30,683 bases of DNA from a virus: positions 1-30,683 of the IMG/VR virus record IMGVR_UViG_3300025449_000038. One strand, written 5' to 3'. Below, piece by piece: positions 14,295 through 18,402 of this stretch. A program made the position numbers and the translations under genes. The stretch's first letter is position 1; every line of letters starts with the position of its first letter. The notes under the pieces are model-generated. The model was not told where the DNA came from. It saw nothing but the letters and a program-made list of their open reading frames with translations, and made no database searches.

Positions 14295-14385
14295 TGTTTT
14301 ATTCCTTATGTTTTGGTTAAGTGGAAAATCCACACCTAATAATCGCATGGTTTAAACATTGTCCATATTAGGGGAAACCCTATTA

Positions 14386-14486
14386 GGGTAAACCCTCGAA
14401 AATCGAGATCGCAAGGGGGTTGGGGCTAGGGTAGCCTGACCGATCAACTCAGCTAAAAAGGGGCTTAAAATGCGTCTGATAGGATA
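14386..14486 (-). repeat. Conserved leader repeat, copy 2
   Basis: Minus-strand blocks TCAGACGCATTTTAAGCCCC-TTTTTAGC, CAGGCTACCCT, CTCGATTTTCGAG and GGGTTTACCC are shared with copy 1 (12979-13080). It lies ~100-190 bases before the SprT-like gene. An operator-like TTTCACAATGTGGGA (14487-14501) touches its upstream end. Confidence 0.65.
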
Positions 14487-14501
14487 TTTCACAATGTGGG
14501 A
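14487..14501 (+). promoter_or_regulatory. Operator-like inverted repeat, copy 6
   Basis: TTTCACAATGTGGGA, a member of the TTYCR-YAWTG-YGRNA family, at the upstream edge of leader repeat copy 2, where a promoter for the SprT-like gene would be expected. Confidence 0.5.
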
Positions 14502-14555
14502 TTTGGGGGTATCTATTCACCCCTTCCCCTCAACCCTCGCACCCGCATAGCCATG

Positions 14556-14693
14556 CCACCTGATAGCCATGTTGCACCGCAACACCAATGCACCAACATG
14601 GTGCAATCCCTTACTGCCAATGTGGGTATTGTTTAAACCACCTCGCTACCTGTCAGCCATGTTGCACCGCACCATCATGCACCACTATGGTGC
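14556..14693. repeat. Tandem ~90-bp degenerate repeat with palindromes
   Basis: Two units share AGCCATGTTGCACCGCA, then ATGCACCA...ATGGTGC. The palindromes GCACCAACATGGTGC (14590-14604) and GCACCACTATGGTGC (14679-14693) have the same 6-bp arms and differ only in the 3-bp centre; they are 89 bp apart. An (A/C)ATTGTGGG-like sequence follows each. Possible iterons of an origin or binding sites of a regulator. Confidence 0.6.
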
Positions 14694-14728
14694 TTCCGCA
14701 TTGTGGGATAGAGTTTCATAATGTGAAA
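14694..14728 (+). promoter_or_regulatory. Two adjacent operator-like sites (copies 7 and 8)
   Basis: TTCCGCATTGTGGGA (14694-14708) and TTTCATAATGTGAAA (14714-14728) are centred 20 bp apart, the same spacing as the pair at 4904/4924 in the sigma promoter. Same-face helical spacing suggests cooperative binding. Confidence 0.6.
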
Positions 14729-14845
14729 AAGGAATTCTTATTTAGCTAAGAGGGGGGTCTGTTTAAACTCGATACCCCTAAAAAATAGACCCCCGTGCCC
14801 TCGGGACTGGGGCCCCACCAAGACTAAGTTTTTATATTTTTCTAC

Positions 14846-14862
14846 ACCGGACCCCGGTTTTT
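14846..14862 (+). terminator. Weak hairpin terminator (plus strand)
   Basis: ACCGG-ACC-CCGGT followed by TTTT. Only a 5-bp stem with a 3-nt loop, so at best a weak stop to rightward background transcription. Confidence 0.3.
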
Positions 14863-14897
14863 GCTAAGTCATTGATTTATATAGAGGGGGCCTTTTC

Positions 14898-15015
<118 letters not shown>

Positions 15016-15066
15016 CTAGTGGTTGGGCTCTCAAAAAACACTACATCTAGTAGGTCAAAATATTGT

Positions 15067-15102
15067 GGGCGTTTTTAATTGGGTTTGTGCATTAGTATAT
15101 GT
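15067..15102 (+). promoter_or_regulatory. Phage late promoter copy B
   Basis: GGGCGT, 11 bases, TTTGTGCATTAGTATATGT. It fits the consensus GGGCGK-N11-TTTKTGCATTAGTATA. It would transcribe the 102-aa gene, the intein-like gene and TerL. The ATG of the 102-aa gene begins at motif offset 36, as in copy D. Confidence 0.8.
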
Positions 15103-15411
15103 ATGAGTCAATACGTGTACCAAATCCACGGAGCATTGGAAAATGCAGAGGGCCAGTTCAAAGGGCTAAGGGTTTTGGTATGCGACTTATACAATTTCGA
15201 GTCTGTGGATGTCCCAGTCGAAATACTAGACAATGAAACGGCAAAATATATCCAGTTTCGCTTAAAAGTAACAACCCAGCCATTGGATATTCAAAAGCTA
15301 CCCGTTTCAGTTCAAAACCGAATCAGAGGGCCGTTAGGGCACTGGTTAGATTATTGGGTGACTAAAAACTTCTATGGCGGTCCTAGCAAATCAAAAGATA
15401 CTAACGCTTGA
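15103..15411 (+). CDS. Hypothetical protein (102 aa), first late gene
   Basis: Start at ATG 15103 (MSQYVYQIHGALENAEGQFK); an upstream TTG at 15079 is inside the promoter. No SD is visible, and the ATG is so close to the -10-like block that the transcript may have little or no leader. Contains DVPVEILDNETAKYIQFRLK and ends SKSKDTNA. Position before TerL would suit a small terminase subunit, but there is no helix-turn-helix signature, so this is not claimed. It overlaps the intein-like gene by 38 bases. Confidence 0.65.
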   Translation: MSQYVYQIHGALENAEGQFKGLRVLVCDLYNFESVDVPVEILDNETAKYIQFRLKVTTQPLDIQKLPVSVQNRIRGPLGHWLDYWVTKNFYGGPSKSKDTNA

Positions 15412-16369
15412 TTATTGGAAAAGAGCAGACCAGGTCCAAGAAGGTGACCTGTTACTAGACCGCAATGGTCAACCTGCCAAAGTAACCTTAGTCCAAAAAT
15501 ACACCCCGCCACATTGCTATGAGGTTTTATTCAACGACCACCTGACCATAGCTGGAGATGATAAGCTGGGGTTTGTGGTTGAGACACACCTTGACCGCTG
15601 CAAAGAATCCCAATACAAAGGTCTACGTCCTAGAGACCGCCAATACCGGGTCAAGCAAATCTCAGACCTACTTATTGAACCCCTACATAATCCAGTCCAG
15701 CATCATTTTATCTATTCGGTTCCAACAACCAAACCACTGCAGCTACCGCACCAAGACTTACCAGTGCCGCCGTTTATTTTTGGATTCTGGTTCTTTAACC
15801 GTAAGAAGCGCAAACAGATGGTAGCATTCCAGGACTTTCAAGATGACATACATCAGGCCTTTAGAGATGCTGGATATCGTGTTAAACTAGGGTGTAAAAT
15901 AAAACAATTGCGCTATGAGTTTACAACAACCCCTACAATCGAATCCCAGCTTGCACCTAATGTGCCAGTTCGTATCCCAAACAACTATCTCATGGGTTCG
16001 TATGAGCAAAGACTTGAATTGCTCAAAGGAATACTGCAAGCTAAACACCGGCAATACAATCCACGCACTAAAGTGTTTAGAATAACAAACATGAACGAGG
16101 CTTTGGTACGTCAATGTCAATGGTTAGTGGAATCGTTGGGCCATAAAACCACGTTTTTCTTCAACGACCAGGTTAAAAATCACACCCTTACGTTTAAATC
16201 TCGCCTAAATTTGATACCTAACCAAATTCCACCAGTCAAAAAACGAGTGTTAGCCCGCCGCCAGATCAGAGAAATCTACGAAATCCAGCAACAACCTTGC
16301 GTTCACATTGAAACCACTGGAGATCGCGGTACGTTTTCAGTAGGAGAAGGATTTATTTCATGCCTTTAA
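15374..16369 (+). CDS. Stand-alone degenerate intein-like (Hint + LAGLIDADG) protein
   Basis: 331 residues with intein order. The N-terminus MAVLANQKILT aligns with intein block A but has Ala in place of the nucleophilic Cys, then VQEGDLLLDRNGQPAKVTLV as in Hint domains. The block B region (LTIAGDDKLGFVV) lacks the TxxH motif. Two LAGLIDADG-like helices are present: PPFIFGFWFFNRKKRKQ (about 132-148) and RLELLKGILQAKHRQ (about 213-227); the acidic catalytic positions read N/R and Q/K. The C-terminus IYEIQQQ...GTFSVGEGFISCL matches blocks F and G but has IS instead of HN before Cys. It should therefore neither splice nor cut DNA in the usual way. It sits immediately before TerL, overlapping its start by 10 bases in another frame. 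The SD is poor. Role unknown; domestication for packaging is an inference. Confidence 0.75.
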   Translation: MAVLANQKILTLDYWKRADQVQEGDLLLDRNGQPAKVTLVQKYTPPHCYEVLFNDHLTIAGDDKLGFVVETHLDRCKESQYKGLRPRDRQYRVKQISDLLIEPLHNPVQHHFIYSVPTTKPLQLPHQDLPVPPFIFGFWFFNRKKRKQMVAFQDFQDDIHQAFRDAGYRVKLGCKIKQLRYEFTTTPTIESQLAPNVPVRIPNNYLMGSYEQRLELLKGILQAKHRQYNPRTKVFRITNMNEALVRQCQWLVESLGHKTTFFFNDQVKNHTLTFKSRLNLIPNQIPPVKKRVLARRQIREIYEIQQQPCVHIETTGDRGTFSVGEGFISCL

Positions 16370-17805
16370 CAGCAAAACAAGAGCTAGTCCTTAAAAAATT
16401 TGCTCAAAACAATAAACACTGGCCCAAACAGCAGCTAGAAGCGGCTATGTGGCAAGTAAAATGGCAGATTCAAGCCCTGCCACACCAAAGGGAGCCAGAA
16501 GATGGAGAATATGACACGTTCCTTATGCTTGCCGGTCGTGGATCTGGCAAGACGCACACTGCTTCTCATTGGATTGGCATTCGTGCTTGGAAATACGATA
16601 ACACACGCTGGCTCGTCACAGCCCCAACCTCAAACGATATCCGAGCAACCTGCTTCGAAGGGGATAGTGGACTCCTTAATATCATCCCACCCAGCATTAT
16701 CAGGGATTACAACAAGTCGCTCTTCGAAATCACCCTTACCAACGGCTCCATTATACAGGGAATCCCCGCCTCCGAACCGGAACGCTACCGTGGTAAACAA
16801 TTCCACGGCGCCTGGTTCGACGAGCTCTGCGCATTCGACTACCTTGACGAAGCCTACGACGGTGTGCAGTTCACGTTGCGTCTTAAAGATCCCCGCATCC
16901 CCCGAGTCCAGCAAATAATCACCACAACCCCCAAGCCAAAAGAACTAATTGTAGACCTTAACGAGGGAAAAATTGGTGGCGATGTGTATGTGGTCAACGC
17001 TTCGTCCTTTGACAACCGAGAAAACCTATCTGAAACCTTCTTCAAGCAGTTAGAAACATACGAAGGCACCGACATGGGCCGCCAAGAGATCTATGGCGAG
17101 ATCTTGGACCCAGAAGCATCTGGTATTGTCAAACGTAAATGGTTTAAAATGTGGCCAGCCTCAATTCCAACCCCAGACCTTGAGTACGTTATTGTTTCCT
17201 ACGACCCGGCTACCAGCGAAAAAACAACCAATGACCCAACCGCATGTACGGCGTGGGGCATTTTTGAAAAACAAGACGCTGGTACTTGTGTTATAATGCT
17301 AGATGCTTGGGACCATCACCTTAACTATCCTGAGTTGCGCCGTAAAGTAATTGATGACTACAAAGAGGTTGTGTACGGAGCCGACAATGATTTTGGTAAA
17401 GGCAAAAAAGCCGACATGGTTTTGATGGAAGACAAATCCGCTGGTATCTCACTGATCCAAGAACTTCAAGGTTCTGGTATTTATGTGCAAGGTTACAACC
17501 CAGGGCGGGCGGATAAAGTACAGCGTTTAAACATTGTGGCACCCCTAATTGCCAAAGGAAAAATTTATATTCCGGAAGATCCTGTAAAGAAAGGTGAGTT
17601 TGCAGACTGGTCCAAACGTTTCATACGGCAGGTGTGTTCTTTCCCAGTCGCTGGTGGGCATGACGATTATGTTGATTCTCTTAGTCAAGCACTTCGAGTA
17701 CTTAGAGATTCTGGTTGGGTTAATTTGGACCCGATTCCAGTTAGGGATTATGATTATGCGGACCAAGATCCATCTAAACGTAGTGCAAATCCTTATGCTC
17801 AATAA
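16360..17805 (+). CDS. terL: Terminase large subunit
   Basis: A 481-residue packaging motor. The ATPase domain has Walker A AGRGSGKT (about 58-65), Walker B AWFDE (about 151-155) and coupling motif ITTTPKP (about 187-193). The nuclease domain (RNase H fold) has VSYDPA (about 277-282), LMEDKSAG (about 352-359) and GGHDDYVD (about 448-455) supplying acidic metal ligands. It docks on the portal, translocates phage DNA into the prohead and cuts it. It begins within the last codons of the intein-like gene, with AGGAGAAGGA upstream as ribosome-binding sequence. It contains the only GTTTAAAC of the late arm (17525). Confidence 0.93.
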   Translation: MPLTAKQELVLKKFAQNNKHWPKQQLEAAMWQVKWQIQALPHQREPEDGEYDTFLMLAGRGSGKTHTASHWIGIRAWKYDNTRWLVTAPTSNDIRATCFEGDSGLLNIIPPSIIRDYNKSLFEITLTNGSIIQGIPASEPERYRGKQFHGAWFDELCAFDYLDEAYDGVQFTLRLKDPRIPRVQQIITTTPKPKELIVDLNEGKIGGDVYVVNASSFDNRENLSETFFKQLETYEGTDMGRQEIYGEILDPEASGIVKRKWFKMWPASIPTPDLEYVIVSYDPATSEKTTNDPTACTAWGIFEKQDAGTCVIMLDAWDHHLNYPELRRKVIDDYKEVVYGADNDFGKGKKADMVLMEDKSAGISLIQELQGSGIYVQGYNPGRADKVQRLNIVAPLIAKGKIYIPEDPVKKGEFADWSKRFIRQVCSFPVAGGHDDYVDSLSQALRVLRDSGWVNLDPIPVRDYDYADQDPSKRSANPYAQ

Positions 17806-17928: not shown

Positions 17929-18402
17929 ATGAAAAAACTTAAACGTGGCGACGTACGTGAAGACGGTATGGTATTTTGGGTTAAAAGATCAACTTGCCAA
18001 AACGGTGAATATTGGATAACAAAAGATCAATACCTAAGTTTTAATAAAAAAGAACAAGATAGGCACCATAAACAAGTATCTTCCAAAGATGGTCACTTAA
18101 GAAAAAATTTAGCAAGTATAAAACGACGGGCTAAATTAAAAAATTTAGATTTTGATTTAGATTTTGATTATTTAATTAAAATTGCTCCAGATTTTTGCCC
18201 CATTTTAAATATAAAACTAGGATGGGGTCGTAGAACTAAAGGGATAGCAGAATTTGATAGCCCGTCATTGGACAGAATAAATCCAAAATTAGGATATACA
18301 AAAGGAAATGTTGCTTGGATTTCAAATAAAGCAAACATGATAAAAAATGATGCGCAGCCCGAAGAACTTCGAGCTGTAGCAAATTGGATGGAAACTCAAT
18401 AA
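17929..18402 (+). CDS. HNH-type homing endonuclease
   Basis: 157 residues beginning MKKLKRGDVREDGMVFWVKR. The C-terminal half has CPILNIKL (about 87-94), SPSLDRINPKLGYTKGNVAW (about 110-129) and ISNKANMIKNDA, the typical pattern of small phage HNH endonucleases (C..l...L, SLDRI...GY..GNV, AN.iKn). The DNA is more AT-rich than the flanking genes, which supports later insertion. It stands between TerL and portal, three bases before the portal start. Likely a free-standing mobile gene cutting phage relatives that lack it. Confidence 0.8.
   Translation: MKKLKRGDVREDGMVFWVKRSTCQNGEYWITKDQYLSFNKKEQDRHHKQVSSKDGHLRKNLASIKRRAKLKNLDFDLDFDYLIKIAPDFCPILNIKLGWGRRTKGIAEFDSPSLDRINPKLGYTKGNVAWISNKANMIKNDAQPEELRAVANWMETQ

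Follow-up and report, generated by a model that had tools for sequence, protein, structure and literature searches.

Inteins are thought to disappear after splicing is lost, when their sequence is no longer protected. Few genes of tailed phages are as well conserved as TerL.

The defining features of class 3 inteins are a WCT triplet and a position 1 without a nucleophile (PMC5050341; PMC7664689), and phage examples have been described in Mycobacterium phage LittleE gp9, Brevibacterium phage Rousseau DnaB and Colt gp205 (PMC5050341). One decayed class 3 intein has been studied and is a pseudogene (PMC3196547). Among stand-alone intein-like proteins, the HO endonuclease of yeast is known to be domesticated (PMC7282813).

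Here we analyzed a 30.7-kb fragment (the window, that is, the whole stretch of DNA under analysis) in which a stand-alone Hint-LAGLIDADG frame lies directly upstream of TerL, and compared it with sequences from IMG/VR. The TerL clade that carries this Hint ORF is called group A below. The locus appears to hold a doubly dead intein that is kept intact by selection at one fixed position in a large and old phage clade. It offers a concrete example, open to experiment, of how a selfish element can be turned into a working part, and it suggests that DNA packaging or the control of late genes may involve a hitherto unrecognized component.

Predicted fold, class 3 descent and catalytic residues

A sequence-only reading of the window had aligned the intein blocks A, B, F and G and two LAGLIDADG helices in order, and this part of it was borne out. 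Over its whole length the window protein aligns colinearly with six class 3 inteins that are in frame in phage TerL, DnaB and other genes, and its intein blocks and both LAGLIDADG helices follow the order found in true class 3 inteins. In the isolates that matched best, TerL, DnaB or other proteins contain an in-frame intein, and a PHROGs search with the Hint ORF returned intein-bearing TerL families. Searches of the sequence gave no match in Pfam or NCBIfam, the WhiA family included, and no match to a TerS family.

The AlphaFold2 model of the Hint protein, built from an alignment of 42 proteins from the window and IMG/VR, has a mean pLDDT of 89.1 and contains a Hint domain and a LAGLIDADG domain with the two-repeat fold. 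The best PDB match found by Foldseek was PI-SceI (1jva, E = 6.8e-13), followed by the TliVMA and PhoVMA inteins, which are bifunctional like PI-SceI, and then by I-DmoI (E about 2e-5). VIA-align gave a Z of 25.0 across 314 residues for the model against PI-SceI and a Z of 18.1 (rmsd 1.9, 128 residues) against the class 3 MchDnaB-1 intein (6rix). These matches of the predicted model are far above chance. The predicted structure and the alignment together show a stand-alone protein of class 3 descent with a Hint-LAGLIDADG fold.

All six aligned inteins belong to class 3, with no nucleophile at position 1 (Ser in one), a Trp in block B, the F:4 Cys and a THN end. We surveyed the corresponding residues in 163 distinct complete relatives that are 25-100% identical (Table 1). 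The position-1 Ala, which stands immediately after ATG, GTG or TTG in 255 of 255 ORFs, had been noticed before but misread as a lost Cys1. Because the closest inteins are class 3 and have no nucleophile at this position, the alignment identifies Ala as the ancestral state. What the window protein has lost relative to class 3 is the Trp and Thr of the WCT triplet, the final HN and the block B His. The Trp column holds Phe or Leu in the family. The missing TxxH of the earlier reading is true of the window protein, in which the block B His is absent, but not of the whole family, as this His is present in 55 of the 163 relatives.

The endonuclease acids had also been described as replaced, and the survey agrees. 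The acid position of helix 1 is Asn in 110 of the 163 relatives, and the two relatives with Glu in helix 2 have Ser in the first motif; none of the 163 has both nuclease acids, and none has a THN end. The claim that all catalytic motifs are lost was slightly too strong, since the F:4 Cys is kept (161 of 162 relatives). Flanking exteins are also missing: the frame opens with an ATG of its own and is 331 codons long, with neither an HN nor a +1 nucleophile. The loss of His-Asn before the final Cys was thus correctly seen, but that Cys is not an intein residue. A penultimate or final Cys occurs in 160 relatives and coincides with the TerL start (NATGY or NGTGY), so Cys330 is kept because the overlapping start codon dictates it and not as a +1 extein residue. 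Judged by its residues, the protein almost certainly neither splices nor cuts.

Table 1. Features of the Hint-TerL locus and key residues of the Hint protein, with positions in the window
Feature	Position	Strand	Basis
Divergent intergenic region 5' of the operon, with phage-specific repeats	14349..15102	.	
orfU, 102 aa, opens the rightward operon, 38-nt overlap with Hint ORF	15103..15411	+	
Stand-alone class 3-type Hint-LAGLIDADG protein, 331 aa, almost certainly catalytically dead	15374..16369	+	ORF, model pLDDT 89.1, PDB matches, relatives
Ala2, intein position 1, right behind the start codon	15377..15379	+	Ala in 163/163 distinct relatives
Lys64, in place of the block B His (B:10); class 3 Trp column is Phe67	15563..15565	+	
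Asn142, in place of the catalytic acid in LAGLIDADG helix 1	15797..15799	+	D/E in 0/163
Lys224, in place of the catalytic acid in LAGLIDADG helix 2	16043..16045	+	K/R in 150/163, Glu in 2
Cys309, block F:4 Cys, class 3 nucleophile, kept	16298..16300	+	
AGGAGAAGGA, likely TerL Shine-Dalgarno, within the codons of the conserved VGEGFI end	16342..16351	+	Inference from sequence
TerL, 481 aa, uninterrupted, Walker A LAGRGSGKT, Terminase_6N/6C	16360..17805	+	Family match
Cys330 codon, out of frame with the overlapping TerL ATG (16360-16362)	16361..16363	+	

Position beside TerL, family history and selection

The intact Hint frame is the second gene of a rightward operon, between orfU and TerL; minus-strand genes lie to the left of the divergent intergenic region. 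That the frame ends over the TerL start was confirmed, with an overlap of 10 nt in the window and of 7-10 nt in nearly all loci. The orfU product is conserved, and its model, which combines two helices with three strands, is confident (pLDDT 88). We considered it as a TerS or another known fold and rejected this, as it has no PHROG or Pfam family match and no PDB match better than E = 0.04. At some loci (L181, L188-L192 and L043), ORFs resembling part of an HNH endonuclease stand in place of orfU and still overlap the Hint start. Another HNH endonuclease-like gene lies at 17929-18402 of the window, between TerL and portal (PHROG 3322, E = 1e-31).

A TerL-based search that was independent of the Hint ORF kept 80 contigs; the Hint ORF was present, whole or in part, in all 78 that extend upstream, and the other two start at TerL. 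TerL adjoins the Hint ORF in 252 of the 254 loci with downstream sequence, a count in which some contigs were fetched twice. One exception is L127, the one locus with an interrupted (frameshifted) Hint frame. In the other, L121, an HNH-like gene separates two intact ORFs, so direct overlap with TerL is not indispensable. The carriers of the stand-alone Hint protein are a large freshwater phage group, and no intein was seen inside the TerL of this clade. The Hint ORF is lacking in the sister TerL clade (80 loci, about 52% identical), where nearly all loci have TerS immediately upstream of TerL; group A enters this comparison with TerL at 77% identity or more. The sister locus L205 was considered as an intein-interrupted TerL and rejected, as it has an upstream partial TerL-like frame and no intein.

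In the tree, the stand-alone proteins form one clade against the class 3 inteins (support 100/100), which fits one ancestral inactivation followed by long divergence. The identity of the Hint protein to that of the window falls to 25% in loci where the adjoining TerL is still at least 80% identical, and the minimum TerL identity over all Hint loci is 77%. Among pairs with dS between 0.15 and 1.5, the Hint ORF had a median dN/dS of 0.081 (309 pairs), compared with 0.040 in TerL and 0.186 in orfU. The Hint ORF is under strong purifying selection.

The core of the sequence-only reading, a stand-alone protein dead for splicing and cutting that selection keeps beside TerL, is thus upheld by the fold, the family-wide loss of residues, dN/dS and adjacency. 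Of the checks that it had named, structure prediction, homologues beside TerL and dN/dS came out in its favor; the Hint fold that it expected was found in the model, and the TerL inteins that would have spoken for recent decay did not appear in the clade.

Candidate roles of the Hint protein

The position of TerS in the sister clade, where there is no Hint ORF, gave rise to the idea that the Hint protein replaces TerS. A search with Pfam TerS families missed even known TerS types of the sister clade and was replaced by HMMs built here, with which the sister-type TerS was absent from group A genomes, including three that have terminal repeats and look complete. These HMMs also missed, in most genomes, a gene that was spotted in the gene list of one complete genome: a TerS-like gene of 128 aa in the replication module (L285:12347-12730, minus strand), which matches the terminase small subunit family PHROG 309 (E = 5e-13). 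In group A phages the PHROG 309 gene is distant from TerL and oppositely oriented, and it was found in 9 of 11 group A records and in 0 of 9 sister records; the window is among the two without it. Replacement was rejected because complete group A genomes carry this gene, and TerS has therefore been displaced, not replaced. The TerS of the sister clade (L194-L273) is itself modular, with at least three unrelated N-terminal parts on one C-terminal tail (EHNxNVFGELLKxIKxQRQ), which is perhaps the TerL-binding part.

We tentatively propose that the Hint protein is a domesticated, catalytically dead class 3 intein that has been kept as a DNA-binding protein and partner of the terminase, a reading to which we give somewhat less than an even chance. 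The starting point would have been a phage intein of class 3 that carried a LAGLIDADG endonuclease and became a gene of its own directly upstream of TerL; splicing and cutting would have been lost once, in the ancestor of the phage clade. The retained protein would bind DNA without cutting it, as suggested by its basic domain and by Lys or Arg at the catalytic Asp position. The net charge of the nuclease-derived domain is on average +12.3 (4 to 18), compared with -1 to +8 in six intact class 3 inteins, and its variability is highest in several of the predicted saddle strands (2.3-2.7 bits), the Hint parts being more conserved. These features fit non-cutting DNA binding with a changing target, and that target is unlikely to lie inside terL, because TerL hardly changes. 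The overlapping frames suggest that the Hint protein is translationally coupled to TerL. In the least certain step, it might assist the TerL/TerS complex in recognizing or holding phage DNA when packaging begins. This role is proposed because of the fixed link to TerL and the translational coupling, both of which are indirect. Against it stand the separate TerS-like gene, so that no stand-in for TerS is needed, and the HNH gene between the Hint ORF and TerL in L121. A more specific version, in which the inactivated intein was exapted as a packaging DNA-recognition factor, its fast-evolving DNA-reading strands set phage-specific packaging or late-gene sites, and the TerS gene moved to the replication module, is conceivable but rather doubtful.

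The divergent intergenic region has been considered as a target. In the window it contains 33-nt repeats at 14555-14587 and 14645-14677 with TGTTGCACCGCA (at 14570 and 14660), and other clade members have different phage-specific repeats in the same region. An upstream 9-mer present at least three times was found in 91 of 97 group A loci versus 8 of 59 sister-clade loci. The window also has 35-nt inverted-repeat arms (77% complementary) around a long T-run at 14909-15014, just 5' of orfU. A tie between the repeats and the nuclease-derived domain was not supported: the AUC of 0.61 for repeat sharing fell to 0.50 when close relatives were removed, which also counts against the packaging model, and TerL, as a proxy of general relatedness, predicted repeat sharing better. 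An autoregulator is a serious but less likely alternative: the dead LAGLIDADG protein would bind this region and, working in the manner of WhiA, would govern the early-to-late switch in transcription. The WhiA precedent and the place of the Hint ORF, second in the operon behind the repeat-rich region, agree with such a regulator, but motif sharing does not track the nuclease-derived domain, the repeats also occur elsewhere in some genomes, and the Hint gene stays with TerL and not with the promoter-proximal orfU.

The invariance of the F:4 Cys and the stronger conservation of the Hint parts could instead reflect a new catalytic or protein-binding role of the Hint domain. We consider this improbable; the partners of the Cys in the class 3 triad (B:10 His and G:5 Thr; PMC7664689) are mostly absent, which makes cysteine-protease chemistry unlikely. 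It is still less probable that the Hint ORF matters only for the translation of TerL. The short overlap and the likely Shine-Dalgarno within conserved C-terminal codons agree with this, but the dN/dS of about 0.08 and the invariant residues extend across 331 codons, and the last 30 nt cannot explain them. Slightly lower again we place immunity by occupancy, in which the dead homing endonuclease would shield TerL against cutting by active relatives: active-looking class 3 inteins do occur in the TerL genes of other phages (PMC5050341), but a TerL with a dN/dS of 0.04 predicts conserved terL-reading strands, several of which belong to the most variable part, and the Hint-carrying clade shows no TerL intein. 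A defence function was also considered and dropped, as PADLOC gave no match. Recent decay of an active TerL intein is scarcely credible. Decayed class 3 inteins exist (Arth_1007, PMC3196547), but this reading is contradicted by the hundreds of relatives that are intact at identities as low as 25% and include no active member, by purifying selection and by the stable position.

Comparison with known systems

We found no description in the open-access literature searched of an intein dead for both splicing and cutting that is under selection beside a terminase. The Hint protein resembles TerS (Sf6 and PHROG 309 types) only in position, as the TerS of the sister clade is also located upstream of TerL; the two share no relation of fold or sequence, and a separate TerS-like gene is present in the same genomes. 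WhiA (PMC3781837) is likewise a homing-endonuclease relative, acting as a DNA-binding regulator, but it has an HTH domain, has no Hint domain and is found in different organisms. The HO and WHO elements of yeast (PMC7282813) are also stand-alone and intein-like, with no exteins and no motif G. However, they have an active nuclease and a zinc finger, whereas in the Hint protein the acids are absent and the chain ends right after block G with no added domain.

The closest among known systems are the phage class 3 inteins, with which the Hint protein shares a colinear Hint-LAGLIDADG arrangement, a non-nucleophilic position 1, the F:4 Cys and the same predicted fold. Those inteins lie in frame inside host proteins and have an intact WCT triplet, the B:10 His and THN, whereas the Hint protein stands alone, W, T and HN are missing from it, and neither nuclease acid is left. 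The Arsp-FB24 Arth_1007 intein (PMC3196547) is similar in being a class 3 intein that is inactive and does not sit in a genuine host protein. It is, however, a single decaying pseudogene that lacks the F:4 Cys and retains W and T, whereas the Hint clade shows the opposite pattern, is large and is under purifying selection.
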